From: Rikenellaceae bacterium
GTDB taxonomy: Bacteria > Bacteroidota > Bacteroidia > Bacteroidales > Rikenellaceae
Length of the DNA stretch: 64,000 nt
Direction of reading: 5' to 3'
NCBI GenBank assembly: GCA_015060045.1
Contig: SUZH01000008.1
Location: 1-64,000, forward strand
The position numbers were made by a program, and so were the translations under genes. This document shows, one piece after another, positions 3,161-40,248 of this stretch. Below the pieces are notes generated by a model, which was not told the origin of the DNA, ran no database searches, and was given only the letters and a program-made list of their open reading frames with translations. The first letter of the stretch is position 1, and each line of letters opens with the position of its first letter.

Positions 3161-3166
3161 GGTTGC

Positions 3167-4656: not shown

Positions 4657-4677
4657 GGTAGGAAGGTGTTAGTCGGG

Positions 4678-5952: not shown

Positions 5953-6059
5953 AATTGTACGGTTTATTTTCGGTTTTTGCTTGTTCTTCGGATGTGTCGT
6001 TTTTGATTATGCTAAATTAATCAGTTTTTTGATCAATCTCAATAGATACCTATTCATAT

Positions 6060-6077
6060 AAATGGAAATTCGTACAA
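6060..6077 (-). promoter_or_regulatory. Candidate PUL regulator site, CE12 operon
   Basis: TTGTACGAATTTCCATTT reads toward the CE12 operon and ends about 107 bp before its ATG. A partial second copy on the same strand (TTGTACGAATT) lies at 6121-6138. The site matches the one upstream of GH105 at 22282-22299 in 16 of 18 positions. Confidence 0.55.
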
Positions 6078-6101
6078 GAAAAGCGGTCATGGAGTCCTAT
6101 T

Positions 6102-6119
6102 TTGTACGATTTTGCATCC
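6102..6119 (+). promoter_or_regulatory. Candidate PUL regulator site, GH43 operon
   Basis: TTGTACGATTTTGCATCC has the same core in the plus orientation, toward GH43, and lies about 40 bp before a -7 box. It shares TTGTACG and TTT-CAT with the minus-strand site beside it. Confidence 0.5.
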
Positions 6120-6159
6120 AACTGCCCAATTCGTACAAAAAAAATGTGTAACTTAGGTC

Positions 6160-6167
6160 TACTTTTG
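6160..6167 (+). promoter_or_regulatory. -7 promoter box for the GH43 operon
   Basis: TACTTTTG fits the Bacteroidetes TAnnTTTG consensus and lies 19 bp before the GH43 start codon. No TTTG -33 element is found at normal spacing, which suits an activator-dependent promoter. Confidence 0.55.
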
Positions 6168-6186
6168 TATTGTAAAAAAGTGCACT

Positions 6187-7155
6187 ATGCGATTTTTGAA
6201 GCAAATAATGCTCTTCTTGGGCTGTATGTTGTCGGTTGTTCCGATGGCTTGCAGTACGGATGAACCTGCCTATCTGTTCTCCTATTTCACGGGGGACAGC
6301 CGGGATGGTTTGCACTTGGCCTATAGCCTGGATGGTGAAAGCTGGATTGCGCTCAACAACGGGCAATCTTTCTTGAAACCCATCGTCGGTAAGGATTGCC
6401 TGATGCGCGATCCCAGCATCTGCCAGGGACCCGATGGCGTGTTCCACCTGGTGTGGACCTCGAGTTGGACCGACCGCATTATCGGCTATGCCTCCTCGCG
6501 GGATTTGATCCATTGGAGCGAGCAACGTGCCATCCCCGTGATGATGCACGAAGAGACGGCGCACAACTGCTGGGCTCCCGAGCTCTTCTATGACGAGCCT
6601 TCGGGGTTGTTCTATATCATCTGGGCCACGACGATCCCCGGTCGCCACAAGGAGGTGCCTGTGATCGAGAGCGAGAAGGGATTGAATCACCGCATCTACT
6701 ACGTGACGACGCGCGATTTCGAGACCTTCTCCGAAACGAAACTCTTCTTCAATCCCGATTTTAGCGTCATCGATGCAGCCATCGTGCGCGATGAAACGAA
6801 GGGTGATCTGGTGATGGTCGTGAAGAACGAAAATTCGCTGCCCGCGGAGAAGAACCTGCGTGTGACCCGTACCCGAAACCTCGAGGATGGTTTCCCGACG
6901 GAGGTGTCACCCGCCATTACGGGGGATTATTGGTGCGAGGGACCCGCTCCGCTCTTCGTGGGGGATGCCCTCTATGTCTATTTTGACAAATACCGCAACC
7001 ACCGTTATGGTGCTGTCGTAAGCCGCGACCACGGCCAGACGTGGGAGGATATCTCCGACCGTGTGTCGTTCCCCGAGGGAATCCGCCACGGTACGGCTTT
7101 CAAAGTATCGAAAGAGGTGTTGGAGCAATTACTTCGATTACAAGAACAAGAATAA
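6187..7155 (+). CDS. GH43-family glycoside hydrolase, lipoprotein
   Basis: This 322-aa protein starts with a lipoprotein signal ending in 'VVPMAC' and contains a five-bladed beta-propeller pattern. 'MRDPSICQGPDGVFHLVWTS' carries an early Asp, 'DAAIVRDE' a middle acidic site and 'WCEGPAPLF' the likely catalytic Glu, which follows the GH43/GH-F layout. Family members release arabinose, galactose or xylose residues; in an RG-I locus with GH42 and GH2 an action on arabinan or galactan side chains is likely but unproven. It is the first gene of the rightward PUL arm, 13 bp before GH42. Confidence 0.8.
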   Translation: MRFLKQIMLFLGCMLSVVPMACSTDEPAYLFSYFTGDSRDGLHLAYSLDGESWIALNNGQSFLKPIVGKDCLMRDPSICQGPDGVFHLVWTSSWTDRIIGYASSRDLIHWSEQRAIPVMMHEETAHNCWAPELFYDEPSGLFYIIWATTIPGRHKEVPVIESEKGLNHRIYYVTTRDFETFSETKLFFNPDFSVIDAAIVRDETKGDLVMVVKNENSLPAEKNLRVTRTRNLEDGFPTEVSPAITGDYWCEGPAPLFVGDALYVYFDKYRNHRYGAVVSRDHGQTWEDISDRVSFPEGIRHGTAFKVSKEVLEQLLRLQEQE

Positions 7156-7168
7156 AACGTGCACACTA

Positions 7169-9250
7169 ATGATAAAGAGACAACTACTGACGCTGCTTTT
7201 TGCCTGCACTTTCGCGGGTGGCCTTTTCGCGCAACAGCCTTGGTTTAAGGATCGCGATCTGACCCTGACGGGTGTCTACTACTACCCCGAGCATTGGGAG
7301 GATAGCCAGTGGGAGCGTGATCTGAAGCAGATCCGCGACCTGGGTTTCGAGTTTGTGCACTTTGCCGAGTTCGCCTGGGCGCAGTTGGAGCCTGAAGAGG
7401 GTAAGTATGACTTCGCCTGGCTGGATCGTGCCGTGGCGCTGGCTGCCAAGTATGATCTGAAGGTGATCATGTGTACCTCGACCGCAACGCCGCCCGTTTG
7501 GCTCAGCCGTAAATACCCCGAAATCCTGGTGCGTAATGAGCAGGGTATTGCGCTGGATCACGGTGCGCGTCAGCACGCTTCGTTCGCTTCGCCCCTCTAC
7601 CGCGAGTTGGCCTACAAGATGATCGAGAAGCTGGCCGAGCACTACGGTTCGGATCCGCGCATCATCGGCTGGCAGCTCGATAACGAGCCGGCCGTGCAGT
7701 TTGACTACAACCCGAAGGCCGAGTTGGGCTATCGCGATTTTCTGCGTAAGAAGTACAACAACGATATCCAGGCGCTGAATGCTGCCTGGGGCACCTCGTT
7801 CTGGAGTGAGGTCTACTCCTCATTCGATGAGATTACCCTTCCCAAACCTGCCCAGATGTTCATGAATCACCACCAGATTCTGGACTATCGCCGTTTTGCA
7901 GCAGCCCAGACCAACGAGTTCTTGGATGCACAGTGCTTATTAATAAAGAAGTATGCCAAGAATCAGTGGGTGACGACGAACTACATCCCCAACTACGAGG
8001 AGGGCCATATCGGTGGCAGCCCTACGTTTGATTTTCAGTGCTACACGCGTTATATGGTATATGGTGATAACGAGGGTATCGGTCGTCGCGGTTATCGCGT
8101 CGGTAATCCGCTGCGTATCGCCCTGGCCAACGACTTCTTCCGCCCGATTCAGGGAACCTATGGCGTGATGGAGTTGCAGCCCGGTCAGGTAAATTGGGGC
8201 ACGATCAACCCGCAGCCGCTGCCGGGTGCTGTGCGCCTCTGGCTGTGGAGCGTCTTTGCCGGTGGCAGCGACTTTATCTGCACCTACCGCTATCGTCAGC
8301 CCCTCTTTGGCACGGAGCAGTACCACTACGGTATTGTCGGTACGGATGGCGTGACGGTGACGCCGGGTGGTCATGAGTACGCGCAATTTATGCGCGAGAT
8401 CAAGTCGCTGCGCGGGCAGGTAGGTGAGCGTGAGGCGAAGCCCGCCGACTATACGGCTCGTCGCACGGCGATTCTCTTCAACCACGAAAATTCGTGGAGC
8501 ATCGAGCGCCAAAAGCAGAATGCGACGTGGAACACGATGGGCCATATCGAGAAGTACTACCGCACGCTGAAGTCGTTTGGTGCGCCTGTCGATTTTATCA
8601 CCGAGGCAAAAGATTTTACGGATTATCGCGTCATGATCGTGCCGGCGTATCAGCTGGCAGATAAGGCGCTGGTGGATCGTTGGATCGCCTACGTGAAGCA
8701 GGGCGGAAATCTGGTTGTCACCTGCCGTACGGCGCAGAAGGATCGCTATGGTCGTCTGCCCGAAGCTCCGTTTGGTTCGATGATCGATCCTCTGACGGGC
8801 AACGAGATGGAGTTCTACGACCTGCTGCTTCCCGAGGATAAGGGCGTGGTCGAGATGGATGGCAAGCGCTATGCCTGGAATACCTGGGGTGAGATTCTGA
8901 AGCCCGGTAAGGGCGTTCAGGTGTGGGCTACCTACGACGAGGAGTTCTATGCCGGTAAGCCCGCCATCACGAGTCGTCGCCTGGGACGCGGTACGGTGAC
9001 CTATGTGGGCGTCGATAGCGCCGACGGCTCGCTCGAAAGAGAGGTGCTGAAGAAGCTCTATGCCGAGCTGGAGATTCCGGTGATGGATCTTCCCTATGGC
9101 GTGACGATGGAGTATCGCAACGGTATGGGTATTGTGCTTAATTACAGCGATAGACCCTATCGTTTCGAGCTTCCGAAGGGGGCTAAGAAGTTGATCGGCG
9201 AAGAGGCGATTCCCACGGCAGGCGTCCTGGTTTTCTCGATTGCCGAATAA
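7169..9250 (+). CDS. GH42 beta-galactosidase
   Basis: I place the start at ATG 7169 rather than the 7061 of the ORF track, because the signal peptide 'MIKRQLLTLLFACTFAGGLFAQ' begins there and the longer version runs into GH43. The 693-aa product is a GH42 (beta/alpha)8 enzyme: 'LTGVYYYPEHW' opens the barrel, Glu173 in 'QLDNEPAV' is the probable acid/base and Glu335 in 'MELQPGQ' the nucleophile. A trimerisation-like domain and a beta domain follow. It would remove terminal beta-galactose from galactan side chains of RG-I. The signal peptide indicates action in the periplasm, unlike many cytoplasmic GH42 enzymes. Confidence 0.92.
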   Translation: MIKRQLLTLLFACTFAGGLFAQQPWFKDRDLTLTGVYYYPEHWEDSQWERDLKQIRDLGFEFVHFAEFAWAQLEPEEGKYDFAWLDRAVALAAKYDLKVIMCTSTATPPVWLSRKYPEILVRNEQGIALDHGARQHASFASPLYRELAYKMIEKLAEHYGSDPRIIGWQLDNEPAVQFDYNPKAELGYRDFLRKKYNNDIQALNAAWGTSFWSEVYSSFDEITLPKPAQMFMNHHQILDYRRFAAAQTNEFLDAQCLLIKKYAKNQWVTTNYIPNYEEGHIGGSPTFDFQCYTRYMVYGDNEGIGRRGYRVGNPLRIALANDFFRPIQGTYGVMELQPGQVNWGTINPQPLPGAVRLWLWSVFAGGSDFICTYRYRQPLFGTEQYHYGIVGTDGVTVTPGGHEYAQFMREIKSLRGQVGEREAKPADYTARRTAILFNHENSWSIERQKQNATWNTMGHIEKYYRTLKSFGAPVDFITEAKDFTDYRVMIVPAYQLADKALVDRWIAYVKQGGNLVVTCRTAQKDRYGRLPEAPFGSMIDPLTGNEMEFYDLLLPEDKGVVEMDGKRYAWNTWGEILKPGKGVQVWATYDEEFYAGKPAITSRRLGRGTVTYVGVDSADGSLEREVLKKLYAELEIPVMDLPYGVTMEYRNGMGIVLNYSDRPYRFELPKGAKKLIGEEAIPTAGVLVFSIAE

Positions 9251-9287
9251 ATACAGATAACCAACCTTGAAACAACCCAACAGAACG

Positions 9288-12056
9288 ATGAAGAAGCTGT
9301 TACTTTTGATCCTTGCGATGATCGGCGTGTGGAGCGTGGAGGCTCAACCGACCGAACGCATCTATCTGAGTGGTACCGATGTCGAGCATCCTCGTACCTG
9401 GGACTTCTATTGTTCGGCCGGACAGAATAGCGGCGCATGGCGCACGATCCAGGTGCCGAGCTGCTGGGAGCAGCAGGGCTATGGTGCCTATACCTATGGC
9501 CGCTTTTACCGTACTAAGGGGTTGAAGCCGAGCACCGAGACGGGTCGTTACCGCACGACCTTCAAGGTGCCCAAGGGCGGCCATTACCGCCTCGTCTTCG
9601 AGGGCTCGATGACCGACACCCAGGTGTGGATCGACGGCAAGCAGGTTGGCCCTGTGCATCAGGGTGGCTTTACCGAATTTTCCTACGATGTGACCCCCTT
9701 CATTCGCCCCAACAAGGTGCAGATGCTGGAGGTGCTGGTCAGCAAGGAGTCGGCCAACGCGAGTGTGAATGAGGCGGAGCGCCGAGCCGATTGGTGGCTC
9801 TTTGGCGGTATCTATCGCCCCGTATATATCGAGGTGATGCCCAAGGCGCACATTAGCCATGTGGCGATCGATGCCCGTGCTACGGGTGAGATTTATGCCG
9901 AGGTGAAGGCTACGACGGATAGCCCCGTGTCGCTTTCGATCGATGGCGAAAAGGTGGCCTACAACGTCGAGAAGGGTTGCTGGATCTATCCCAACCCCAA
10001 GTTGTGGACCCCCGAAACACCGCACCTCTACAAGGCGACCTTTACGTTGGGCGAGGAGGGACATAGCGTGTCGTATAAGATTGGTTTCCGCACGATAGAA
10101 TTCCGCGCCAACGACGGTATTTATCTGAATGGTACGCGCCTGGTCGTGAAGGGTACGAATCGCCACTGCTTCCATCCCGAGACGGCTCGCGCCTTGAGCC
10201 CGGCCATGAGCCTGAAGGATGCGCAGCTCATCAAGGCGATGAATATGAACGCCGTGCGTAGTCACTACCCCTCGGATCGTCACTTCCTCGAGGTGTGCGA
10301 CTCGATCGGTCTGTTGTATTTCGACGAGCTGCCTGGCTGGCAGACCCGCTACGATAACGAGACGGCTGCCCGTATCGTGGAGGAGTTTATCGCCCGCGAT
10401 GTGAATTATCCCTCGATCTATATTTGGAGCAACGGTAACGAGGGCGGTTGGAATCGCTCGATCGACCACCGCTTTGCCGAACTCGATATCCAAAAACGCA
10501 AGGTGGTACACCCCTGGAGCGACTTCCAGGGCATTGATACCCACCACTATCCCGCCTATCAGACGGGCATCTACCGCCTGCAAAACGGTCAGCATGTCTT
10601 TATGCCTACGGAGTTCCTGCATGGGCGTTACGACCGTGGCCAGGGTGCCGCTTTGGAGGATATGTGGTCGCATTGGACGCGTTCGCCCCTCTTTGCGGGT
10701 GGCTACATTTGGGCCTACGTCGATGAGGCGATTCGTCGCACCGACCTGCCTACGGGTAACTCCGCAGGGAAGCACTTCGGCGAGCCGGGCTTCGATATCA
10801 AAGATTGCCTGCTCGACAGCGATGGCGCACATGGCCCTGACGGCTGTATGGATCCCTACCGCCAGAAGGAGGCGAGCTTCTATACGATCCGCGAGGTGTG
10901 GAGCCCGATCTACATCGACCGCCTCCATGTGAACCCCTCGTTCGATGGTCGCGTGCTGGTGTCGAACCGCTACCTCTTTACCAACCTGGCCGATTGCAGC
11001 ATGGCTTACCGTGTGAAGAGCTTTGCAGGTAAGGTGCTCGACGAAGGCAAGGTAGCGCTGCCGGCGATTGCCCCGGGCGAGAGTGCCTATGCGCGCTTCG
11101 AACTGCCCGCGCGTTTTGGCGAGGGTGATGTGCTGGAGCTTGTGGCGTATGATCACCACGGCATGGAGGTCTGCAACTGGACAGCTCCGATTCAGCGTGC
11201 CGATGCGCAGCAGATTGTCGGCAAGAGGGATCGCAACGCGAAGAAGATCACCTTCAACGAGCAGGGTATCTTCTCGGTGGATGGCCTCGTAGGCCCCTTC
11301 CCCGTGGGTATTGAGGTCGAGGTGCGCAACCACGCGGAGCGCACCGAGGCCGATGGTACGGTCGTGAATACCTTCTGGTACAAGGGCGGTATCGACAGCA
11401 TCGAGTGGCGACAAACGCCCGATGGCCTGTTGCACATGGATGCCGTGGTGCTCAACGATGAGCGCGGACACGGCATGCATCCCTTCCTCACGGCCGAGAG
11501 CCAGTGGGTGCTGGGTCTTACGTTTGAGTATCCCGAGGCGGTGGTGGATAGCGTGCGCTGGGTTGGTCGCGGTCCTTATCGCGTCTGGAAAAACCGCCTC
11601 AAGGGGCAGCATTTCGGCGCTTGGTCATTGGCCTATAACAATACGATTACGGGTAGTTACAACACCCCGAATCCGCCGCTCTATCCCGAGTTTAAGGGCT
11701 ATCGCAGCGATCTGCGCTGGATGGAGATGGTACCGAAAAAGGGTTGCCCGTGGCGTGTTTATACGCTCAACGAGGGGATGTATCTGCGCCTCTTCACGCC
11801 CGAAGAACCGGTAGATCAGACGGCCGGCGAGATGGGTGGTCTGCAGGAACTGCAGCCGCGTAAGCAGGAGAAGAGCATGGTCCCCTTCCCGGCAGGAGAT
11901 ATTTCGTTCCTGCTCTCGATTCCGCCGATCCAGAGCTACAAACCGCTCGAACAGCTGGGCCCCGAAAGCCAACCCTACAACATCCGCATTAAGCCCGGTG
12001 ATGATGGCTTCCGCATCCGCCTGGTGTTTGATTTTGATTCGGAGGAACGCATCTAA
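9288..12056 (+). CDS. GH2 beta-galactosidase
   Basis: The start is set at ATG 9288 (signal peptide 'MKKLLLLILAMIGVWSVEAQ'); the track's TTG at 9267 adds seven residues that do not fit. The 922-aa protein has the GH2 order of sugar-binding domain, immunoglobulin-like domain, TIM barrel and C-terminal beta domains. Glu385 in 'WSNGNEGGW' is the expected acid/base and Glu442 in 'PTEFLHG' the nucleophile. GH2 covers beta-galactosidase, beta-glucuronidase and beta-mannosidase. The LacZ-like build and the neighbouring GH42 favour galactose. It lies 37 bp after GH42. Confidence 0.85.
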   Translation: MKKLLLLILAMIGVWSVEAQPTERIYLSGTDVEHPRTWDFYCSAGQNSGAWRTIQVPSCWEQQGYGAYTYGRFYRTKGLKPSTETGRYRTTFKVPKGGHYRLVFEGSMTDTQVWIDGKQVGPVHQGGFTEFSYDVTPFIRPNKVQMLEVLVSKESANASVNEAERRADWWLFGGIYRPVYIEVMPKAHISHVAIDARATGEIYAEVKATTDSPVSLSIDGEKVAYNVEKGCWIYPNPKLWTPETPHLYKATFTLGEEGHSVSYKIGFRTIEFRANDGIYLNGTRLVVKGTNRHCFHPETARALSPAMSLKDAQLIKAMNMNAVRSHYPSDRHFLEVCDSIGLLYFDELPGWQTRYDNETAARIVEEFIARDVNYPSIYIWSNGNEGGWNRSIDHRFAELDIQKRKVVHPWSDFQGIDTHHYPAYQTGIYRLQNGQHVFMPTEFLHGRYDRGQGAALEDMWSHWTRSPLFAGGYIWAYVDEAIRRTDLPTGNSAGKHFGEPGFDIKDCLLDSDGAHGPDGCMDPYRQKEASFYTIREVWSPIYIDRLHVNPSFDGRVLVSNRYLFTNLADCSMAYRVKSFAGKVLDEGKVALPAIAPGESAYARFELPARFGEGDVLELVAYDHHGMEVCNWTAPIQRADAQQIVGKRDRNAKKITFNEQGIFSVDGLVGPFPVGIEVEVRNHAERTEADGTVVNTFWYKGGIDSIEWRQTPDGLLHMDAVVLNDERGHGMHPFLTAESQWVLGLTFEYPEAVVDSVRWVGRGPYRVWKNRLKGQHFGAWSLAYNNTITGSYNTPNPPLYPEFKGYRSDLRWMEMVPKKGCPWRVYTLNEGMYLRLFTPEEPVDQTAGEMGGLQELQPRKQEKSMVPFPAGDISFLLSIPPIQSYKPLEQLGPESQPYNIRIKPGDDGFRIRLVFDFDSEERI

Positions 12057-12071
12057 ACGATTGGATTGATT

Positions 12072-13694
12072 ATGAAGCAATTGTTGATGATATTGTTGGC
12101 CGTGTGCTCGGCGCTGACCCTCTCGGCGCAGGAGTCGCTGATCCTGCACTACGATTTCCGCGATGTGCAGGGCCATACGGTCGTGGATCAGAGTGCTTCG
12201 CACTTCGACGGCAAGCTGTGCGGCTCGGCCGTGGTGGATGCCGAGGGTATCTATCTTGGCAACGAGAACGGTTACCTTGATCTCGGCGAGGAGATTGGTA
12301 AGCGCCTGCAGCAGTCGCGCCAATTTACGGTGGCCGTGCGCTACAAGGTGGACAGTGAGGCTTCGCTCAAGGGGCAGGGCTACTTCCTGTGGGCCTTCTC
12401 GACCCTGGAGCTGAACACCTTCACCGAGGGTCGCTACCATGCCTACAAGCTCAACATCCAGCGAGCCGAGAACTCGGTGGGTGGCTGGAAGAACGAGACC
12501 TTGATGGATCTGGGTAAGGCCTCAGCGAAGGGCGAGTGGCAGTATGTGGTCTATACGCAGAACGATGACGAGGGCCGCTTGTTCCTCAATGGTCGCCTCG
12601 TAGCCTTCAACAACGCCATGTTCACGATGAGCGAGACCTTTCCCACGGAGGCTCCCCGCTATAATTGGATGGGGCGTGCTCCGTTTAAGGGCGACTCCTA
12701 TTTGAAGGGTGCGCACCTCGCGGATGTACGCATCTACACGACGGCGCTGACCGAAAAGGAGATTCGCATGCTCTACAACGAGGTGCAGCAGAGCGATTTG
12801 AGCCGTCACAACTTTATGTACACGGGGCAATCGAAGAACCGCCGTATCTTCAAGGTCGAGGGCGGCGAGATCGTGTGGCGCTACGACAACGTCGCAGGCC
12901 GTGGCGAGATCAGCGATGCCGTGCTGATGGATGACGGCCATATCCTGATCGCCGACCAATACGGCATTGCTGAGCTGGACGAGGCGGGTACCGAGCTTTG
13001 GCGCATGGAGGTTCCCAAGGGTACGGAGGTGCACACCGTGCAGCCCATCGGTACGGAGCATGTGGTTTATGTGCTGAATGCCAAGCCGGCCAAGGCGGTC
13101 GTGATGAACATCAAGAAGCAGAAGACCGTGCAGGAGTTTGAACTGCCCTACGAGGAGAAGGGTAGCGTGCATGGGCAATTCCGCAACGCCCGCCTCACGC
13201 GCCGGGGTACGCTCCTCGTATCGAATATGGCGATGGGCTTCGTGGCCGAATATACGGCTAAAGGCAAGGAGCTCAATCGCTGGGAGCTCTTCGGCCCCTG
13301 GTCGGCTACGGAGCTCGAGAACGGTAATATCCTCATGGTGGGTCGCAAGGGTCCCGTGAAGGAGATTACGCGCGAGGGCGAGGTGGTTTGGGAGACCGAT
13401 GCCGTGAAGTTCGGGCTGAAGAATCCGCAGAAGGCCTATCGTCTGAAGAATGGAAATATGGTGATTACCAATTGGTTCAATGAGTGGAACAAGCAGGATG
13501 TGGCGACCTTTAACCCACGTCGTGCTCCGCTTCAGATGATCGAGCTCACGCCCGATGAAAAGGTCGTGTGGGAGGTCTCCTCGTGGTCGGAGGATAAGAA
13601 CTTAGGCCCTGCAACCACCTTCCAACTGCTGGATGAGCCGGTGGTGCGCAGTGCGTGTCGATTTGGAAAATTTGGAGATAAAACGAAAAAATAG
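12072..13694 (+). CDS. Secreted LamG-domain plus beta-propeller protein
   Basis: This 540-aa protein (ATG 12072) has a signal peptide ending 'TLSAQ', then a concanavalin/LamG-like domain (about 20-240: 'LHYDFRDVQGHTVVDQSA', 'ADVRIYTTALTEKEIRMLYN'). A PQQ/arylsulfotransferase-like propeller (about 265-535) follows, with repeats such as 'GGEIVWRYDN', 'GTELWRMEVP' and 'GEVVWETDAVKFG'. I see no catalytic motif for either half. It could bind pectin through LamG while the propeller binds or modifies a ligand. It sits 15 bp after GH2 and 6 bp before the DUF362 gene, inside the PUL operon, so a role in RG-I use is likely but unspecified. Confidence 0.75.
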   Translation: MKQLLMILLAVCSALTLSAQESLILHYDFRDVQGHTVVDQSASHFDGKLCGSAVVDAEGIYLGNENGYLDLGEEIGKRLQQSRQFTVAVRYKVDSEASLKGQGYFLWAFSTLELNTFTEGRYHAYKLNIQRAENSVGGWKNETLMDLGKASAKGEWQYVVYTQNDDEGRLFLNGRLVAFNNAMFTMSETFPTEAPRYNWMGRAPFKGDSYLKGAHLADVRIYTTALTEKEIRMLYNEVQQSDLSRHNFMYTGQSKNRRIFKVEGGEIVWRYDNVAGRGEISDAVLMDDGHILIADQYGIAELDEAGTELWRMEVPKGTEVHTVQPIGTEHVVYVLNAKPAKAVVMNIKKQKTVQEFELPYEEKGSVHGQFRNARLTRRGTLLVSNMAMGFVAEYTAKGKELNRWELFGPWSATELENGNILMVGRKGPVKEITREGEVVWETDAVKFGLKNPQKAYRLKNGNMVITNWFNEWNKQDVATFNPRRAPLQMIELTPDEKVVWEVSSWSEDKNLGPATTFQLLDEPVVRSACRFGKFGDKTKK

Positions 13695-13700
13695 TCAGCT

Positions 13701-14939
13701 ATGAAACGAATGTTATTGCTCGCGGTTGCGCTATGCACCGCATGGGGCGTGACGGCACAACCCCGTCTGCATGTCGGCCCGAATGAGCCGATTGGCGAGC
13801 CCGTAGGTATCAACAAGGGGCGTGTGGCTTGGATTCATAACCCGGGTGTTGCGACCTGGGACGGCGAGACGGGCTTCTGGGTTGAGGAGCGTTGGAACGA
13901 CCAGCAGAAGGCGGACGCGATGGTGCGCCAGGCGGTGATGACCCTGGCCGGCAAAAAGTCGCCGAAGGCTGCCTGGAAGGCACTCTTCAAGAACTTCAAC
14001 CAGCGCCACGGCAAGGGCAATGTGGGCTATAAGGAGGGTGAGAAGATCGCTATCAAGCTCAACATGAACAACGCCATTACCCACCGCGAGACGATCGAGC
14101 TGAACTCGTCGCCCTATGTGACGCTGGCGCTGCTGCGCTCGCTCATTGGCGATGGCGGCGTGCGTGAGGAGGATGTGATCGTCTGCGAGCCGAGCCGTGC
14201 CATTACGGATAGTATCTACAACCGTTGCCACCGCGAGTTCCCCGAGGTGGTCTTCATCGACAACCTCGGTGGCGAGGGTCGTCTCAAGTGCGAGTACTAC
14301 CCCGAGCAGCTGAAATATTCGGTCGATAACGGTAAGATGGCGCGCGGCCTGGCCAAGTGCATCGTCGATTCGGAGTACCTGATTAACTCGGCCCTCTTGA
14401 AGACCCACAAGGGTCCGGGCGTGACGCTCACGGCCAAAAATTGGTACGGTGCAACCGATATCAACCTCATGTGGCGCATGAATGCCCACAACGGCATCAG
14501 CCCCGATAAGCGCCACGGCAAGCCGAGCTACAAGACGATGGTCGATTGGATCGGCCACAAGGACCTCGGTCAGAAGTGCCTCTTGTTCCTCATCGACGGC
14601 ACCTATGGCAGCCGCGATGTGAACGGTGCTCCCGCGCCGAAGTGGCAGAAGGCCCCCTTCAACGGCGAGTGGTGCTGCTCGATCATCGTTTCGCAGGACC
14701 CCTTGGCGTGCGATGTGGTGGGTATGGATCTCTTGATTCACGAGTGGCCCGAGTTCGGTAGTTTCAACTACTGCGACGAGTACCTGCGCGAGGCAGCGAT
14801 GATCCCCCATCCGGTGACTGGCGTAACCTACGATCCGGAGCGCGACGGCGAGCCTTTGACTGCCCCGCTCGGTTTGATGGAGCACGCCGACAAAAATCGA
14901 AACTACACGAAGCTGGATGTAGTTTATGTGAAGCAGTAA
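13701..14939 (+). CDS. Secreted DUF362 protein
   Basis: This 412-aa protein has a signal peptide ('AWGVTAQ'). The body matches the DUF362 pattern, with 'GEKIAIKLNMNN' early, 'DVIVCEPSRAITDSIY', a central 'INSALLKTHKGPGVTLTAKNWYG' and 'SQDPLACDVVGMDLL' late. DUF362 proteins elsewhere are often ferredoxin-linked, but I see no 4Fe-4S cysteine cluster here, and the signal peptide argues against a cytoplasmic redox role. The biochemical function is unknown. It is the last gene before the 204-bp gap that precedes susC and has the same orientation. Confidence 0.75.
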   Translation: MKRMLLLAVALCTAWGVTAQPRLHVGPNEPIGEPVGINKGRVAWIHNPGVATWDGETGFWVEERWNDQQKADAMVRQAVMTLAGKKSPKAAWKALFKNFNQRHGKGNVGYKEGEKIAIKLNMNNAITHRETIELNSSPYVTLALLRSLIGDGGVREEDVIVCEPSRAITDSIYNRCHREFPEVVFIDNLGGEGRLKCEYYPEQLKYSVDNGKMARGLAKCIVDSEYLINSALLKTHKGPGVTLTAKNWYGATDINLMWRMNAHNGISPDKRHGKPSYKTMVDWIGHKDLGQKCLLFLIDGTYGSRDVNGAPAPKWQKAPFNGEWCCSIIVSQDPLACDVVGMDLLIHEWPEFGSFNYCDEYLREAAMIPHPVTGVTYDPERDGEPLTAPLGLMEHADKNRNYTKLDVVYVKQ

Positions 14940-15034
14940 ATGTGCGCGAAATAGGCTAAAAAACGGATGGGTAAAATCAGAATAACAAAAAAAATAGCAG
15001 AAACACAAAAATAATTATCAAAACATGCGAAAAA

Positions 15035-15052
15035 TTGTACTTTTTTGCTTAA
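15035..15052 (+). promoter_or_regulatory. Weak candidate regulator site before susC
   Basis: TTGTACTTTTTTGCTTAA matches the GH43 site in 13 of 18 positions and reads toward susC, ending about 90 bp before its ATG. The T run makes chance resemblance more likely than at the other sites. Confidence 0.35.
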
Positions 15053-15143
15053 TTTTACTTTAGTAAATCACGCTAAGGGAGCATTAGGCAGAGGCGTGCA
15101 AAATTCGATAACTAACCTATTTACTAACTTAATAACTTTACGT

Positions 15144-18100
15144 ATGAAAGACAGAATTACAAGTCTGTTAGTCCGTTTCTCAAAACGGGCGTTCTTCGTC
15201 GCTTTGTTCTCAGTCTTGGCTATTGGTGCCATGGCGCAAAGCAAGTCCGTCTCGGGTACCGTGCTTGATAAGGCAGGGGAGTCCGTTATTGGCGCAAGTG
15301 TGGTAGTTAAGGGTACTACGATCGGTACTACCACCGGCGTTGACGGTAAGTTTACGCTTCAGAGCGTGCCCAACAACGGTACGCTGGAGGTGAGCTTCCT
15401 CGGTTACAAGACCGTGGAGGTTGCAGTTAACGGCCGCACGGCTTTTGAGGTTGTCCTCGAGGAGGATGCCGCTCAGCTCGATGAGGTTGTGGTTGTTGGT
15501 TACGGCGTGATGAAGAAGAGCGACGTGACGGGTGCTGTGGCACGTGTTACGTCGGAGGAGCTTACGAAGCGCCCCGTGAACAACGCATTCGAGGCTATGC
15601 AGGGTAAGATCGCCGGTGTGGATATCACCTCGAGCGAGCGCCCCGGTACGCTGGGTTCGGTTCGCATCCGTGGTGAGCGTTCGATCACGGCTTCGTCGTC
15701 GCCCCTCTACGTAGTAGACGGTGTGCCCCTGTCGGCCGGTGGTATCGAGACGATCAACCCGCGCGACATCGAGTCGATCGACGTACTGAAGGATGCTTCG
15801 TCGACCGCTATCTACGGTTCGCGTGGTGCCAACGGTGTTATCCTCGTGACGACGAAGCGCGGTAAGGCCGGTCAGCTCTCGCTGAACTACTCGGGTACGG
15901 TAACCCTGGAGAAGCTGATTGACAAGTCGCCTTCGATGTCGGCAAGCGACTACATCACGTGGCGTCGTTGGGCTTACCACAACAGCAACGAGGAGCTTTA
16001 TCCGCGTGGTGACGAGCCGAACTATGCAAAGGACCAGGATTACTTCTCGGGTGATGACTGGGCTTTGGCTAACATCAACAAGGGCTGGGAAGGTGGCAGC
16101 TGGGATGGTTCGAAGGTTTCGAACACCGATTGGGCTGACATGGTAACCCAGACCGGTGTGACGCACGAGCACACGATCAGCGGTAGCGCCGGTAATGAGA
16201 CCGCTCAGGCCTTCTTCTCGGTTGGTTACCTGAACAATCAGGGTACGCAGAAGGGTCAGGAGTACGAGCGTTACAACTTCGCTATGTCGGTTGACCTGCA
16301 GGTGAAGCCTTGGTTCAAGTTAGGTGGTTCGATCAACGGTTCGTGGTCGGTTCAGGACTACGGTTACTCGCGTACCGGTCAGTCGTCGAGCTCGGGCCCC
16401 GTCGATGTCTACAACGCATCGAAGGCTCTGCCGCGCTACACGGTTCCCTATGATGCTCAGGGTGATATCATAACGAACCCCGGTGGTTCTACGACGAATG
16501 CTTACACGGTGATCGACGAGTGGAAGAAGTCGAAGGATAACCGCCAGACCTTCCGCGCACTGGGTAGCTTCTACGGTTTGTTCGATTTCGGTAAGATGTG
16601 GCAGCCGCTGGAGGGCCTGACCTACAAGATTTCGTTCGGTCCCGACTTCCGTCACTATCGTCAGGGTATCTTCATCAGCAAGGATTCGGCTGTGAAGATG
16701 GGTTCGAAGAACTACGCTAAGCAGGGTACGAACCGCTACCTGGCTTGGACGCTGGACAACCAGATCAACTACAACCGTACGTTCAACAAGCATACGGTAG
16801 GTGTAACGTTGCTGCAGACCGCTTCGAAGTTCAGCAACGAGAGCAACTCGCAGAGCGCTAACGCTATCCCGAACGAGCAGTTCGAGTGGTACAACATGGG
16901 TAGCGTGGATATTACCGATGCTGCAACCTATGGCGCAGGTATGGGTACGGGTCTCTCGGAGAACCAGCTGACCTCGTACATGGCTCGTGTAAACTACTCG
17001 TTCGACAACCGCTACCTCTTGACCGTATCGGGTCGTTATGATGGTGCTTCGGTGCTGGCAAAGGGTAACAAGTGGTCGTTCTTCCCCTCGGCTGCCCTCG
17101 GTTGGCGTATCGACCAGGAGCAGTTCATGCAGGATGCTTCGTGGATCAACCAGTTGAAGCTTCGCGTTGGTTTCGGTGCAACGGGTAATGCCGCTGTAGG
17201 TGCCTATAAGACTCTGGGTCTGATTCAGGACTTCTTCGTACCGTTCGGTGCAACGGCCGTTCCGGGTTACGCCACCAACGAGCCCTACTACACGTCGGGT
17301 AGCGTTCAGATGGCCAACAAGGAGCTGGGCTGGGAGAAGACCACGCAGTATAACTATGGTGTTGACTTCGACTTCTTCGACGGTCGCATCGGTGGTACGT
17401 TGGATGTTTACCACTCGAAGACGACGGATCTGTTGCTCAACATGACGATCCCGACCCTGACCGGTTTCTCGTCGACGCTGGCTAACATCGGTGCTACGAA
17501 GAACTTTGGTGTTGACCTGTCGCTGAACCTCGTTCCCGTTCGCACGAAGAACTTCGAGTGGATTTCGACCATCAACGCTGCTTACCAGAAGGACGAGATC
17601 GTTGAGTTGGCTAACGGCAAGCAGGACGATATCGGTAACAAGTGGTTCATCGGTGAGTCGATCAACGTACACTTCGGTATCGAGAATGACGGTCTGTGGC
17701 AGTACGGTGACGAGGAGGAGATGGCCAAGTTCAACGCTAACGGTGAGGACTTCGAGCCCGGTAAGGTTAAGCCGGTTGACCAGAATGGTGACTACAAGAT
17801 CGACGACTCGGACCGTAAGATCCTTGGTAACAAGAACCCGAAGTTCGTATTGGGTTGGTCGAATACCTTCGCTTGGAAGGGTCTTGAGCTGGGTATCGAG
17901 ATGTATGGTCGCTTCGGCTACATGGTAAGCGCCGGTGCTGAGGGTCAGCTCGGTATGTACAACCAGCGTGAGATCGACTACTGGACGCCCGATAACCCGA
18001 ATGCCGATTATCAGAAGCCTATCTACAGCCAGTCGGGTGGTGATGCTTACTCAAGCCTGCTCGGTCTGAAGAAGGCATCGTTCCTTAAGCTGCGCAACAT

Positions 18101-18281
18101 CTCGATCGGTTACAACTTCAACCAGAAGACGCTGAAGAAGATCGGTATTGCTTCGCTGAAGGTTTACGCACAGGCACGTAACCTGGGTAACGTTTACTCG
18201 TCGGTTGACTTCATGGATCTGGATACGGGTACGACCTTCTACAACCGCGGTTATACGTTCGGTGTACAGATCGGTTTCTAA
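15144..18281 (+). CDS. SusC-family TonB-dependent outer-membrane transporter
   Basis: The ATG at 15144 gives the signal peptide 'MKDRITSLLVRF...GAMAQ'; the ORF track start at 15045 lies in the leader. The 1045-aa protein begins with a carboxypeptidase-regulatory-like domain ('VSGTVLDKAGESVIGASVVV'), then a TonB-box-like 'LDEVVVVGYGVMKKSD'. A plug with 'IRGERSITASSSPLYVVDGVP' and a 22-strand barrel ending 'YTFGVQIGF' follow. It imports oligosaccharides cut at the surface, working with the SusD partner encoded 49 bp downstream. The pectin-active enzymes around it suggest RG-I oligosaccharides as cargo. It is the only SusC in the locus. Confidence 0.95.
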   Translation: MKDRITSLLVRFSKRAFFVALFSVLAIGAMAQSKSVSGTVLDKAGESVIGASVVVKGTTIGTTTGVDGKFTLQSVPNNGTLEVSFLGYKTVEVAVNGRTAFEVVLEEDAAQLDEVVVVGYGVMKKSDVTGAVARVTSEELTKRPVNNAFEAMQGKIAGVDITSSERPGTLGSVRIRGERSITASSSPLYVVDGVPLSAGGIETINPRDIESIDVLKDASSTAIYGSRGANGVILVTTKRGKAGQLSLNYSGTVTLEKLIDKSPSMSASDYITWRRWAYHNSNEELYPRGDEPNYAKDQDYFSGDDWALANINKGWEGGSWDGSKVSNTDWADMVTQTGVTHEHTISGSAGNETAQAFFSVGYLNNQGTQKGQEYERYNFAMSVDLQVKPWFKLGGSINGSWSVQDYGYSRTGQSSSSGPVDVYNASKALPRYTVPYDAQGDIITNPGGSTTNAYTVIDEWKKSKDNRQTFRALGSFYGLFDFGKMWQPLEGLTYKISFGPDFRHYRQGIFISKDSAVKMGSKNYAKQGTNRYLAWTLDNQINYNRTFNKHTVGVTLLQTASKFSNESNSQSANAIPNEQFEWYNMGSVDITDAATYGAGMGTGLSENQLTSYMARVNYSFDNRYLLTVSGRYDGASVLAKGNKWSFFPSAALGWRIDQEQFMQDASWINQLKLRVGFGATGNAAVGAYKTLGLIQDFFVPFGATAVPGYATNEPYYTSGSVQMANKELGWEKTTQYNYGVDFDFFDGRIGGTLDVYHSKTTDLLLNMTIPTLTGFSSTLANIGATKNFGVDLSLNLVPVRTKNFEWISTINAAYQKDEIVELANGKQDDIGNKWFIGESINVHFGIENDGLWQYGDEEEMAKFNANGEDFEPGKVKPVDQNGDYKIDDSDRKILGNKNPKFVLGWSNTFAWKGLELGIEMYGRFGYMVSAGAEGQLGMYNQREIDYWTPDNPNADYQKPIYSQSGGDAYSSLLGLKKASFLKLRNISIGYNFNQKTLKKIGIASLKVYAQARNLGNVYSSVDFMDLDTGTTFYNRGYTFGVQIGF

Positions 18282-18330
18282 TGGAGCGAACAGATTGGTT
18301 TCCTAATAACGACTTAAAACTGCATAGAAT

Positions 18331-20484
18331 ATGAAAAATTTCAGAAATACGTTCATTGCTGCTCTGCTGGCCGTTGCTATGACTACCGGTTTCAGTTCGT
18401 GTAGCGAGAGCTTCCTTGATGAGCACAACAAGGGGTCTTATACCACCGACTATTTCGAGACGGCACAGGGTATTCAGGACCTGGCTACGGCCCTCTATGC
18501 CAATATTCGTTGGCACTTCGGTTACGAGTGGGCCTATGGTATCACCCTTTATGGTACCGATGAGTTTACGAACGGTGCCGACCTGACGGCCGAGCCGTGG
18601 AACACCTACGACAACCGTATCAACCCGCTGGATTGTACCCCCGCAAATGGTGCAGCCAACAAGAACTGTCCTCCCGTATCGGGTCTTTGGGATCAGATGT
18701 ATTACGGTATTTCGTCGGCTAACCTTGTAATCGCTTCGGCTGACAAGGTAACGGACGAGAAGATTCGCAACTACTGCGCCGGTGAGGCTCACTTCCTGCG
18801 TGGTTACAACTACTACCGCTTGTTCGCTCAGTATGGTGGCGTAGTGCTCCAGCTTGAGCCGGTTCAGGGCGTAGTGAAGACCTTCGAGCGTGCTTCGGCT
18901 GAGGAGACGCTGAATCAGGTAATCGCCGACTTCGAGAAGGCTTACGAGCTGCTGCCGACCGATCGTTGGCGTGGTACGGGTTCGTGGACGAAGTACACGG
19001 CTGCCCACTTCCTGGCTAAGGCCCTGTTGTATCGTCAGTCGGAGCGTTGCGCCGATTGGAACTCGGCTTACCCCGCTGATGCTGACTTGACGAAGGCCAT
19101 CTCGCTCTGCTCGGAGGTAATCGCTGCTTGCCCGCTGGAGGCTGATTACAATAGCCTCTACTCGAGATGGACGGGTATCGACTGCAAGGCTGAGGAGTCG
19201 AAGGAGATCCTGATGTCGGCACAGCACACCGCATCGTACACCGGTCGTTTCGGTAACCGTACCTACAACTACTTCAACCCGCAGTTCTCGAACTTCTCGG
19301 GTGGTTGGGTACAGCGTGGCCAGTACATCGGTGGTATGGACTTCCAGCGCTGCCGCCCCACGGAGTATTCGTATGCTATCTTCGATAACGTGAAAGATGC
19401 TCGTATGTGGAAGACGTTCAAGACTATTTACGGTCTGAACCACCAGAACAAGAAGGATGCTGACGTGATCAAGGAGAATGGTATCACTGCCGAGCAGGTT
19501 CCGACCTTCGGTGACTATGGTATCATCTTCATCCTGAACAAGAAGGATGACGCTCGCTTCCGCGCAGGCAACGAGTCGGACTTCGGTACGGTAGGTCGTG
19601 GTGCTGTTGCTCACAACTTCGTACACCCCGAGACCGGCAAGTGGGTTCCTAACGTATTCCCCGTATATGCAGGTGGTAAGTATGTGCTGAATACCTTTGG
19701 TGTAAACGGTAACCCCGCACAGTCGAATGTATTCTGCGGTATCAACAAGACCGACGATGGTTCGCGTACGGCTGAGAAGGGTGATGCACACCGCGACGTT
19801 ACGATGGCTCGTACGGGTGAGACCTACCTGATCAAGGCTGAGGCTGAGGTACGTGCCGGTAAGGATGCCGATGCACTTGCTACGATCAACGCACTCCGCG
19901 CCCGTGGTCAGTGGAAGGATGGTGAGGATCGTGAGTACTACACCGACGGTTCGATGGCATTTGCTAAGTCGGCAGGTGGTGACGAGGACAACTCGACGCT
20001 GAATGCAACGCTGGGTAAGTGTAAGTATTTCGACGAGCAGGGTAAGCAGCAGAAGATTACCAACGCTAAGGCTTTCGAGTACTCGTTCATCCAGAAGAAC
20101 ACCTACTATCTCTCGACCGGTATCGAGCGCACGACGGCCGCTTCGGATCTGCAGATCAAGAGCTGGGCGCAGATTCCCGCAGAGGACCAGGCTGTCCTGA
20201 ACAACCTGGGCGTAAACATCGGCACGAAGGAGGGTAAGATTCACTTCATCCTCAACGAGCGCACCCGCGAGCTGCTGGGTGAGTGGAACCGTTGGGAAGA
20301 GCTGAGCCGCACGAAGACCCTCGTACAGCGCGCTAAGGCTTACAACCCCGAGGCTGCTCCTAACGTAGCTGACAAGCACCTGCTTCGTCCTATCCCGCAG
20401 ACCTTCCTCGATCAGCTGCAGAACGCTGATGGTACGAACCTGTCGGATGCCGATAAGGCTGCTATGCAGAACCCGGGCTATTAG
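18331..20484 (+). CDS. SusD/RagB-family surface glycan-binding lipoprotein
   Basis: This 717-aa protein has a lipoprotein signal ending 'TGFSSC' (Cys24) and then the SusD pattern 'SESFLDEHNKGSYTTDYF'. Helical TPR-like regions include 'RNYCAGEAHFLRGYNYYRLFAQYGGVVL', and the late motif is 'RTGETYLIKAEAEVRAGKDADALATINALRARG'. It covers the SusC barrel as a lid and binds the glycan. At 717 aa it is longer than the usual 500-650, with insertions in the middle. The gene follows susC directly and is closed by a strong terminator. Confidence 0.95.
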   Translation: MKNFRNTFIAALLAVAMTTGFSSCSESFLDEHNKGSYTTDYFETAQGIQDLATALYANIRWHFGYEWAYGITLYGTDEFTNGADLTAEPWNTYDNRINPLDCTPANGAANKNCPPVSGLWDQMYYGISSANLVIASADKVTDEKIRNYCAGEAHFLRGYNYYRLFAQYGGVVLQLEPVQGVVKTFERASAEETLNQVIADFEKAYELLPTDRWRGTGSWTKYTAAHFLAKALLYRQSERCADWNSAYPADADLTKAISLCSEVIAACPLEADYNSLYSRWTGIDCKAEESKEILMSAQHTASYTGRFGNRTYNYFNPQFSNFSGGWVQRGQYIGGMDFQRCRPTEYSYAIFDNVKDARMWKTFKTIYGLNHQNKKDADVIKENGITAEQVPTFGDYGIIFILNKKDDARFRAGNESDFGTVGRGAVAHNFVHPETGKWVPNVFPVYAGGKYVLNTFGVNGNPAQSNVFCGINKTDDGSRTAEKGDAHRDVTMARTGETYLIKAEAEVRAGKDADALATINALRARGQWKDGEDREYYTDGSMAFAKSAGGDEDNSTLNATLGKCKYFDEQGKQQKITNAKAFEYSFIQKNTYYLSTGIERTTAASDLQIKSWAQIPAEDQAVLNNLGVNIGTKEGKIHFILNERTRELLGEWNRWEELSRTKTLVQRAKAYNPEAAPNVADKHLLRPIPQTFLDQLQNADGTNLSDADKAAMQNPGY

Positions 20485-20523
20485 TAGTCTGTTCGACTAT
20501 CCGAAAAGATAGATAACTAATTC

Positions 20524-20560
20524 AGAGCCTGCCTAACAAGGTGTTAGGCAGGCTCTTTTG
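20524..20560 (+). terminator. Terminator after susD
   Basis: A perfect 15-bp stem (AGAGCCTGCCTAACA with TGTTAGGCAGGCTCT), a 3-nt loop and TTTT. It lies 39 bp after the susD stop and 20 bp before the next gene. Confidence 0.9.
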
Positions 20561-20580
20561 GAATCAAACCTTTGTGTAAG

Positions 20581-20889
20581 ATGAAAAAGTTTGGTCTGAT
20601 GCTTGTGGCGGCCGTGGTGCTGTTGCTCACGGGATGTAATCGAGACGGGGTAGTGCGCTACGAACTCGTCGATGGCGACCCTGAGGTCGATTTTCTGGAG
20701 ATTCTCAACGACTCACTCTGCCGCTATACTGTCCCCGGACCGCTGACGGTCGTGGGCCCCTACACCAAGCAGGGAGATACCTATACGCTCATCATCAATG
20801 GCGTGGTGGAGGCACGACTCCATAAATTCGAGCGCGGTAAGCTGATCGGCGAACCGCCCTTCTTCGATGGTGTCTGGGAGAAGAAATAA
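20581..20889 (+). CDS. Small lipoprotein of unknown function
   Basis: This 102-aa protein (ATG 20581) has a lipoprotein signal 'LLLTGC' and a short domain rich in beta strands ('VRYELVDGDPEVDF', 'GDTYTLIINGVVEARL'). I do not recognise a family. It begins 20 bp after the susD terminator hairpin, so it either depends on read-through or has its own weak promoter; no clear TAnnTTTG box is visible. A perfect hairpin terminator follows. A link to the SusCD pair is suggested only by position. Confidence 0.7.
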   Translation: MKKFGLMLVAAVVLLLTGCNRDGVVRYELVDGDPEVDFLEILNDSLCRYTVPGPLTVVGPYTKQGDTYTLIINGVVEARLHKFERGKLIGEPPFFDGVWEKK

Positions 20890-20892
20890 TGG

Positions 20893-20924
20893 AAAAGAGG
20901 ACTTGTTAAGTCCTCTTTTTTTTG
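20893..20924 (+). terminator. Terminator after small lipoprotein gene
   Basis: A perfect 12-bp stem (AAAAGAGGACTT/AAGTCCTCTTTT) with a 3-nt loop runs into a T run. Confidence 0.9.
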
Positions 20925-20997
20925 TTGCTTGATGGCAGCTAATTCCCTGGATAGGATGCTGTCCGGGAGGTCGCCTGATTGCCTCTAAACGCATAAA

Positions 20998-21034
20998 CAA
21001 AAAACAGAGAAGGCACCCTTTCGGATGCCCTCTC
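20998..21034 (-). terminator. Terminator of the GH105 gene
   Basis: Read on the minus strand, GAGAGGGCATCC pairs with GGTGCCTTCTC, with minor mismatches around a short AAAG loop, and then comes TGTTTTTTG. It lies about 60 bp beyond the GH105 stop. Confidence 0.7.
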
Positions 21035-21096
21035 CCAATGAACCAAACCACTTTTAACTAACGGCCTTTGAGAGGCCTCACCAACATAAACCCACT

Positions 21097-22230
21097 CTAT
21101 TCTAATTTATACACTTCGGTTCCTGCCAATAAGAAACAACCTGCGCCGAAATCCTCGAAGTCGATCACCTTGTCATAGGTTACCGGCTGGCTATCCTTCG
21201 GCTCCTTGCCCGTGCCCTGCACCCAGCCCAGGAATCCGTTGGGATGTACCGCCTCCTTTACCATGGCGTTCCACGCCTTCAGCAGCACAGGCAGGTACTC
21301 CTTGCGATCCAGCAGACCGTTTCTTACGCCCCAGGCCATGCCATAGACGAAGAGCGATGTGCCGCTGGTCTCCTTACCGCCGTAGTTCGACTCGTCGTGC
21401 ATGCTCACGTTCCAGAAACCATCCTTGCGCTGGCAATCCTTGATCGCCTTGCTCATGGCTACGAAGTCGGCCACATAGTCGGCGCGGTGCTTCTCGTCCG
21501 AAGGAATCTCCTCCAATACGCGCACCAGGGCGGCATATACCCAGCCGTTGCCACGGCTCCAGTAGCAATTCTTGCCGTTGGGCTCCTTGTAGGGGGGATC
21601 GAAGTCGTGATCGCGCCACCAAAGCCCCTCCTTCGGGTTGTACATGCCCTTTTCGCCGTGCGTATTGCGCGTGTAGGCGTACATATCCCACATCTTATCA
21701 AAGTACTTCTCGTCGCCCGTGAGCTTGCCCATCTTGGCAAATACGGGCATACCCATCTGGATCGCATCGATCCACCACCAGTCGTTCACCTGCGGCGTAT
21801 TGACCAGCATGTCGAGGTTGGCCTTCACCTTGCGGATGCGCTCCGGGTCGGGGCAGATGTTGTAGAGGTCGATATAGGTCTGACCTGCGCAGTAGTCGTC
21901 GGCATTGCGCGTGGTCGTGCCGTTGCGGTAACCCCACTCGTGGTAGTTGGCCCAATCCACGGCATACTTATAATACTCGTCACGCGGAGAGATCGAGTAG
22001 AGTGCCATCAATCCTTCGTAGTAGACGCCACGCGTCCAGATGTTGCTGGGGCGGGTTACATTCTTCACGAACGACGGGGTACGGTAGTCGGCATACTTCT
22101 TCATGAAATAACCATTGACCTTGACCATGTTCTGCAAAGTCTCTTTACGGTCGGGCAACTCTTGTGCCTTTACGACTCCGAAACCCAAGGCCAAAAAAAC
22201 AAGCGATAGGATTACCTTTTTCGTCATCAT
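21097..22230 (-). CDS. GH105 unsaturated rhamnogalacturonyl hydrolase
   Basis: I start at the first of two adjacent ATG codons (22230), which opens the signal peptide 'MMTKKVILSLVFLALGFGVVKAQ'. The 377-aa product is a GH105 (alpha/alpha)6 barrel: 'WWWIDAIQMGMP' carries the catalytic Asp, and 'CYWSRGNGWVYAALVRVLEEIP' is the family signature. It cleaves the unsaturated galacturonate left at the non-reducing end after rhamnogalacturonan lyase action, so it works downstream of PL11. It has its own promoter with a regulator motif and -7 box, and its own terminator, and stands apart from both operons. Confidence 0.92.
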   Translation of the reverse strand: MMTKKVILSLVFLALGFGVVKAQELPDRKETLQNMVKVNGYFMKKYADYRTPSFVKNVTRPSNIWTRGVYYEGLMALYSISPRDEYYKYAVDWANYHEWGYRNGTTTRNADDYCAGQTYIDLYNICPDPERIRKVKANLDMLVNTPQVNDWWWIDAIQMGMPVFAKMGKLTGDEKYFDKMWDMYAYTRNTHGEKGMYNPKEGLWWRDHDFDPPYKEPNGKNCYWSRGNGWVYAALVRVLEEIPSDEKHRADYVADFVAMSKAIKDCQRKDGFWNVSMHDESNYGGKETSGTSLFVYGMAWGVRNGLLDRKEYLPVLLKAWNAMVKEAVHPNGFLGWVQGTGKEPKDSQPVTYDKVIDFEDFGAGCFLLAGTEVYKLE

Positions 22231-22253
22231 GTTGTTTGCTTTTAAGGTTGTTA

Positions 22254-22261
22254 CAAAATTA
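22254..22261 (-). promoter_or_regulatory. -7 promoter box for GH105
   Basis: TAATTTTG on the minus strand matches TAnnTTTG and is 23 bp before the GH105 start codon. The candidate regulator site lies about 20 bp further upstream, as expected for an activator. Confidence 0.5.
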
Positions 22262-22281
22262 AGTTCAATATGTTCATTATA

Positions 22282-22299
22282 CAATGGAAATACGTACAA
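22282..22299 (-). promoter_or_regulatory. Candidate PUL regulator site, GH105 gene
   Basis: TTGTACGTATTTCCATTG reads toward GH105 and differs from the CE12-operon site in only two of 18 bases. Both are also followed by similar AT-rich sequence containing ATGAA. Confidence 0.55.
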
Positions 22300-22342
22300 C
22301 TTCCTTGATTATCATGCAAATGAGCGTCAATGCCCATGTTTT

Positions 22343-27054: not shown

Positions 27055-27087
27055 GGTATAAGTTTTTAGGTTCAACGTTGTTTCAGG

Positions 27088-28500: not shown

Positions 28501-28521
28501 AGCGTTTGTATTAGATGGTTT

Positions 28522-31799: not shown

Positions 31800-31810
31800 G
31801 GTGTTTTAGG

Positions 31811-34159: not shown

Positions 34160-34172
34160 CGTGGTGCGATAT

Positions 34173-35816: not shown

Positions 35817-35832
35817 GGTATAGTGTTTTTGT

Positions 35833-38838: not shown

Positions 38839-38888
38839 AACGGGCAGTTGGGTTCGTAGTGGTTAGGTGTAAAGGAGCAAAAACGGTT

Positions 38889-40240: not shown

Positions 40241-40248
40241 CAAATTTA
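40241..40248 (-). promoter_or_regulatory. -7 promoter box for the eight-gene operon
   Basis: TAAATTTG on the minus strand matches TAnnTTTG and lies 26 bp before the PL22 start codon. The nearest TTTG is only 14 bp further upstream, shorter than the usual spacing. I see no clear TTGTACG site here. Confidence 0.45.

Follow-up and report, generated by a model that had tools for sequence, protein, structure and literature searches.

A tandem direct repeat at fixed promoter spacing as candidate operator of a rhamnogalacturonan-I locus in a Rikenellaceae genome

The 64,000-nucleotide stretch considered here (hereafter the window: positions 1 to 64,000 of contig SUZH01000008.1, assembly GCA_015060045.1, Rikenellaceae bacterium) carries a polysaccharide utilization locus (PUL) for rhamnogalacturonan-I (RG-I), and a short oriented motif recurs upstream of its gene groups; the subject of this report is that motif, the larger element to which it belongs and the regulator it may serve. 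Of its two GH28 proteins, the one at 1736-3160 scores above the cut-off of the NCBIfam BT4146 rhamnogalacturonidase model (764 against 500 bits), and the one at 30417-31799 passes the BT4155 model (882 against 800). Equivalogs of both BT4146 and BT4155 are therefore present, together with PL11, GH105, GH2, CE12-like and rhaM genes, which is the composition of the BT4145-83 type of RG-I PUL; the domain scan of the PUL proteins recovered PL11, two GH105/GH88-family proteins, GH2, GH42, GH43, GH115, GDSL esterases, susC and susD.

Four transcription units can be drawn. The first is a single GH105/GH88-family hydrolase gene (21097..22230, minus strand). The second (1736..5952, minus) comprises a CE12-like GDSL esterase, a DUF4450 protein, an unknown protein and the BT4146-type GH28. 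The third (26740..40214, minus) has eight genes, namely PL22-like, GH2, double GDSL/CE12, GH115, BT4155-type GH28, PL11, GH105 and rhaM. The fourth (6187..20484, plus) runs through GH43, GH42, GH2, LamG, DUF362, susC and susD, the last two of which may belong to it by read-through from the GH43 promoter in both Alistipes genomes that have the locus. The rhaM gene (L-rhamnose mutarotase, 26740-27054, minus) lies in a 458-bp gap between the upstream GH105 gene and that of the regulator described below, and completes the long operon as its eighth member. Behind it, inspection by eye shows a hairpin with a T run that resembles a terminator, so that the regulator gene is probably transcribed separately. 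No RNA families were found in 1-45 kb of the window.

That regulator, a hybrid two-component system (HTCS) protein encoded at 22343..26629 (minus), is the proposed binder of the element. Proteins of this class join a sensor kinase to an AraC-type regulator in a single chain and bind DNA close to their target genes, which they activate (PMC3404733); they are held inactive through a contact between receiver and helix-turn-helix (HTH) domains that involves an S/CHIP motif (PMC11253607). The window protein unites in one chain the propeller sensor, Y_Y_Y, HisKA, HATPase, receiver and AraC-type HTH domains (Pfam Reg_prop, Y_Y_Y, HisKA, HATPase_c, Response_reg, HTH_18), and the motif is present as SHIP in it and in nearly all orthologues. 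An orthologue occurs in only one other genome among 151 Alistipes (86% identity), other close ones being found in Phocaeicola and Bacteroides (57-78%); the HTH region is 86% identical to that of Phocaeicola vulgatus, the recognition regions being near-identical.

The first-pass annotation had pointed to an 18-nucleotide motif directed toward the CE12, GH43 and GH105 genes. All three sites lie where it had placed them and in the orientations it gave: TTGTACGAATTTCCAT at 6077-6062 (minus) before CE12, TTGTACGATTTTGCAT at 6102-6117 (plus) before GH43, and TTGTACGTATTTCCAT at 22299-22284 (minus) before GH105. Allowing up to three mismatches, TTGTACGWATTTCCAT matches the window at these 3 sites only, whereas shuffled sequence gives 0.43 matches on average and never more than 2. 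It had also been held that many equally good matches in unrelated genes would speak against the motif; the genome scan gave none: across all 16 contigs (1.96 Mb), TTGTACGWWTTTSCAT is matched exactly at the three window sites and nowhere else, and the two-mismatch matches inspected elsewhere lie inside or beside unrelated genes.

The motif is real, yet it makes up only half of the element: it belongs to a tandem direct repeat, the second arm of which had been missed. The full element, as seen in Alistipes and in its Phocaeicola and Bacteroides relatives, is 36 bp long (16 bp, N4, 16 bp; period 20) with an approximate consensus of WTGKACGNNTTTSCAT-N4-WTGTAYNNNWTTCYAT. In the GH105 promoters the weaker copy is distal to the strong arm (in P. 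vulgatus, ATGCATAATATTCAAG gaag ATGTACACATTTCCAT), and in the CE12 promoters it is proximal to it (TTATACGAATTTCCAT ctat ATGTACTTCTTTCTAT). Compared over 18 units, the two arms agree by far best at a period of 20 bp, with 8.3 of 16 positions identical against 3.3-5.4 at other shifts.

In the window, the GH105 operator (22284..22319, minus) consists of a distal arm, TTGCATGATAATCAAG at 22319-22304, followed after N4 by the proximal arm already noted at 22299-22284, and it is kept in 6 genomes; its -7 box, TAATTTTG, lies 22 nt past the operator (22254..22261, minus). The CE12 operator (6042..6077, minus), kept in 5 genomes, has the site at 6077-6062 as its distal arm and ATGAATAGGTATCTAT at 6057-6042 as its proximal one, again with a gap of 22 nt to the -7 box TAATTTAG (6012..6019, minus), which is identical in 5/5 genomes compared. 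The sequence TTGTACGGTTT also occurs at the CE12 start region (5955-5965), antisense to the gene. The eight-gene operon, whose promoter had been said to lack a clear copy, does have one: both a position matrix and a sequence profile found an operator at 40306-40271 (minus), and the whole promoter, ATGGACAAATTGACAT-tgaa-ATGGATAATATTCTAT-N22-TAAATTTG, spans 40306-40241, the -7 box occupying 40241..40248 (minus) with a gap of 22; this operator (40271..40306) is kept in the second Alistipes genome (G151). At GH43 (6102..6137, plus) a strong distal arm, the site at 6102-6117, is paired with a poor proximal arm at 6122-6137, and the -7 box TACTTTTG (6160..6167, plus) follows the 36-bp operator at a gap of 22.

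Promoters of the Bacteroidota sigma-ABfr type carry TAnnTTTG at -7 and TTTG near -33 (PMC7366714), and a -7 box of this type accompanies the operators of the window. In a first scan, the 16-mer recurred upstream of orthologous GH105, CE12, GH43, GH115, GH2, PL22, susC and DUF362 genes, and either 22 or 42 nt separated it from the TAnnTTTG-type box in every case, save for the susC sites of the two Alistipes and a single match in G154 that does not precede a PUL gene. The two distances differ by the repeat period because the second, weaker arm sits 20 bp off. Measured from the end of the full repeat, a -7 box (at least 5/6 positions) begins after exactly 22 nt in 18/18 independent transcription units, 13 perfectly and 5 with one mismatch; at 70 other gaps, a mean of 0.11 units has such a box, none of them perfect. 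Six of the 18 units were found by matrix searches in which the box was displayed as well; the other 12 were not, and all of these obey the rule, allowing a choice between two registers.

A distance as fixed as this is what one would expect of a promoter part, and the 16-mer might on that account be taken for a general Bacteroidales promoter or leader element, for instance an upstream promoter element. Its exact matches are, however, confined to this PUL in 1.96 Mb, a tandem structure with a period of 20 is unlike a sigma site, and none of the 149 Alistipes genomes that lack the HTCS orthologue has a profile match at E<=1e-3 (see below); the element is very unlikely to be of this general kind.

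The reality of the operators was further addressed by prediction across families. A 36-column matrix built from Bacteroidaceae operators only, with the -7 box excluded, scores 30.7 at GH105, 27.6 at CE12, 27.2 at the eight-gene promoter and 14.1 at GH43, against shuffle maxima of 9.1 +/- 2.5 (largest 15.4), and each of the four sites is followed by a -7 box after 22 nt. The remaining intermediate scores, around 40.26-40.29 kb, come from the eight-gene site read in overlapping registers, shifted or reversed. Run over the whole genome, a 66-column sequence profile (R1), whose E-values are rough, places GH105 (E 4.3e-7), CE12 (E 5.1e-7) and the eight-gene promoter (E 3.4e-4) at ranks 1-3, and GH43 fifth (E 0.74). 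A match at C15:90576 (E 0.0023), which has a half-site only and stands before an ispE-like gene, was judged to be chance, and so were the distant weak matches C14:84678 and C8:1966. Intergenic DNA is AT-rich in this region and both the GH43 arm pair and the susC copy are weak, so that a coincidental resemblance of upstream sequences deserves consideration. Against it stand the conservation across genomes, the 18/18 spacing and the held-out prediction, the last of which refutes chance for CE12, GH105 and the eight-gene operon; for the locus as a whole this explanation is scarcely credible, and for susC it is a possible one.

The site before susC, put forward as a weaker copy, is indeed there (TTGTACTTTTTTGCTT at 15035), but it has no second half-site, no -7 box at a gap of 22 or 42, and no match by matrix or profile, and was not retained as an operator. 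It is held within a palindrome, GCGAAAAATTGTACTTTTTTGC (15027..15048, plus), which is unique in the genome and was judged to fall outside the operator set, and it is kept in the second Alistipes as part of a conserved stretch, some 50 bp long, that precedes susC (window 15000-15065); the sequence is probably something other than an operator. The weaker assignment at GH43 rests on the conservation in 5 genomes of the distal arm and of its 42-nt spacing. An additional TTGTACGAATTGGGCA occurs there at 6138-6123 (minus), inverted, 21 bp from the site at 6102 and at the position expected of the proximal arm. An inverted-repeat reading of the GH43 promoter was not adopted because TTGTAC is not kept in P. 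vulgatus: TTGTACGAATTGGGCA is similar in the second Alistipes and changed in that species.

Conservation extends well beyond the genus. In P. vulgatus ATCC 8482, orthologues of nearly the whole PUL lie inside about 71 kb, and the 16-mer is kept before orthologous genes in the two Alistipes, P. vulgatus, P. sartorii and IMSAGC_004, and stands before other PUL genes in two Bacteroides metagenome-assembled genomes; the P. vulgatus counterpart of the eight-gene operator precedes PL22. Predicted -7 boxes in P. vulgatus lie at 235.6, 245.6, 250.7, 256.5, 264.0, 279.6 and 285.4/285.5 kb. Along the same line, P. vulgatus has matches at least 2 Mb from the PUL that were absent from training (G153:C1; L158-L161), at 2270406, 2303185, 2447370 and 3010041, before GH2, aldehyde dehydrogenase and GH105-type genes and, more weakly, a GDSL acetylesterase gene. 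These predicted targets suit an RG-I regulon.

The element also follows the regulator across genomes. R1 matches at E<=1e-3 are found in 2/2 Alistipes with the HTCS orthologue versus 0/149 without it. Among 301 Bacteroidaceae genomes, with an orthologue defined as an HTCS of at least 50% identity, matches at E<=1e-4 are found in 18/23 genomes with it versus 2/278 others (Fisher P 1.6e-22). The PUL with its HTCS (1736-40306) is present in only 2/151 Alistipes genomes, and it is common in Phocaeicola and Bacteroides, a distribution that suggests transfer between families; the G+C content of the PUL (0.566) is the same as that of its surroundings.

Here, I show that the candidate operator is a tandem repeat with constant spacing to the -7 box, conserved across genera and co-occurring with the HTCS; on this sequence evidence the motif very probably forms one arm of an operator recognised by the RG-I-type HTCS (22343-26629), which would activate the units of the locus. 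The proposal, already made in the first-pass annotation, that the sites serve this protein gains strongly from all of these comparative features and from the published direct-repeat structure of HTCS sites. In the operators of CE12, GH105 and the eight-gene unit, the two arms do resemble each other, face the same way and lie about two helical turns apart.

Several observations weigh against this assignment. The susC gene of the window has no operator of its own, though proper ones precede susC in a Bacteroides metagenome-assembled genome (G157) and in P. vulgatus, and the proximal arm of the GH43 operator is poor: the matrix gives this operator 14.1, inside the shuffle range, and its genome-wide E-value is 0.74. 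Some training operators of the matrix came from genomes later counted as positive (P. vulgatus). Two Bacteroidaceae genomes have an operator match without the orthologue and 5 have the orthologue without a match, and the co-occurrence is partly co-inheritance, because operators and HTCS share one PUL. Separately, L058 has at 2356-2421 an operator with the 22-nt spacing before PL22, the best HTCS of that genome being only 36% identical, so that the operator code may extend beyond this orthologue group.

It could be argued that the sites serve some other regulator that also acts on the PUL, be it another AraC-type protein or HTCS encoded elsewhere or a sensor of rhamnose or galacturonate, for HTCS paralogues exist in the same genome and the P. 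vulgatus regulon takes in an aldehyde dehydrogenase gene far from the PUL. Yet no other regulator was recognised among the scanned PUL proteins, the operator is found in Alistipes only alongside this HTCS orthologue and tracks it in Bacteroidaceae, and its period equals that of the published RG-I HTCS motif (PMC3878776). A different regulator is accordingly improbable.

If the HTCS is the cognate regulator, its periplasmic propeller domain would sense an RG-I fragment, upon which the receiver domain would be phosphorylated and the AraC-type domain freed; two HTCS monomers would then take the tandem half-sites, forming a tandem dimer across the -33 slot, and would attract RNA polymerase much as a good -33 element does (class II activation). 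With exactly 22 nt between the 3' end of the repeat and the -7 box, the proximal half-site would reach over the edge of the -33 position, where the slot usually reads ATTG or ATTT, not TTTG; the regulator might therefore substitute for a weak -33 contact. As the operator is repeated before the gene groups of the locus, all of them could be co-activated, that is, CE12-GH28, GH43 to susD, GH105 and the eight-gene operon would be switched on jointly.

A broader idea can be entertained tentatively, with rather less than even confidence: that a single rigid HTCS promoter code, in which the period-20 repeat always stops 22 nt short of the -7 box and its proximal half-site replaces -33, is shared across genera and by the far targets. 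In the divergent CE12/GH43 promoter, two strong distal half-sites stand back to back, 23-25 bp apart, and under such a code they could be bound jointly. Were the code true, the promoters and transcription starts of RG-I HTCS regulons would be readable straight from sequence. A defined operator is available for few HTCS regulators, and a precise one with fixed promoter spacing offers binding sites open to experiment and predicts both transcription starts and regulon members, including P. vulgatus genes outside the PUL; moreover, a complete RG-I regulon, regulator and candidate operators together, is present in rare Alistipes.

As for known systems, HTCS sites are described as direct repeats of about 21 bp in PMC3878776, which is also the source of the HTCS comparisons that follow. 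The nearest relative is HTCS_Rgu-2 (BT4178/BT4182), the motif of the Bacteroides RG-I PUL BT4145-83 (14+6+14, period 20 bp; Ravcheev et al. 2013), a locus in which disruption of BT4178 lowers growth on RG-I (PMC3243724). Like the window, it concerns an RG-I PUL with BT4146- and BT4155-type enzymes and a PUL-encoded HTCS. The operators share the 20-bp period (16+4+16 here, with wider arms), a likeness that concerns the period, and both regulons appear to have a distant beta-galactosidase member, BT2680 in Bacteroides and the GH2 gene in P. vulgatus. They differ in that the present operator is found in Alistipes and that one HTCS stands here against two paralogues in B. thetaiotaomicron. The operators of HTCS_Rgu-1 (BT4111/BT4124) and HTCS_Man are likewise direct repeats in tandem that serve an HTCS domain of the AraC type, but with a period of 21 (12+9+12 and 16+5+16) instead of 20, and for other substrates. 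With sigma-ABfr promoters (PMC7366714), the window operators share their position upstream of a TAnnTTTG-type box and differ in the -33 slot. To sum up, control of the HTCS_Rgu-2 type is already known and this locus would be a further example of it, to which is added a strict 22-nt spacing to the -7 box, a rule not found stated in the consulted passages of the published account.

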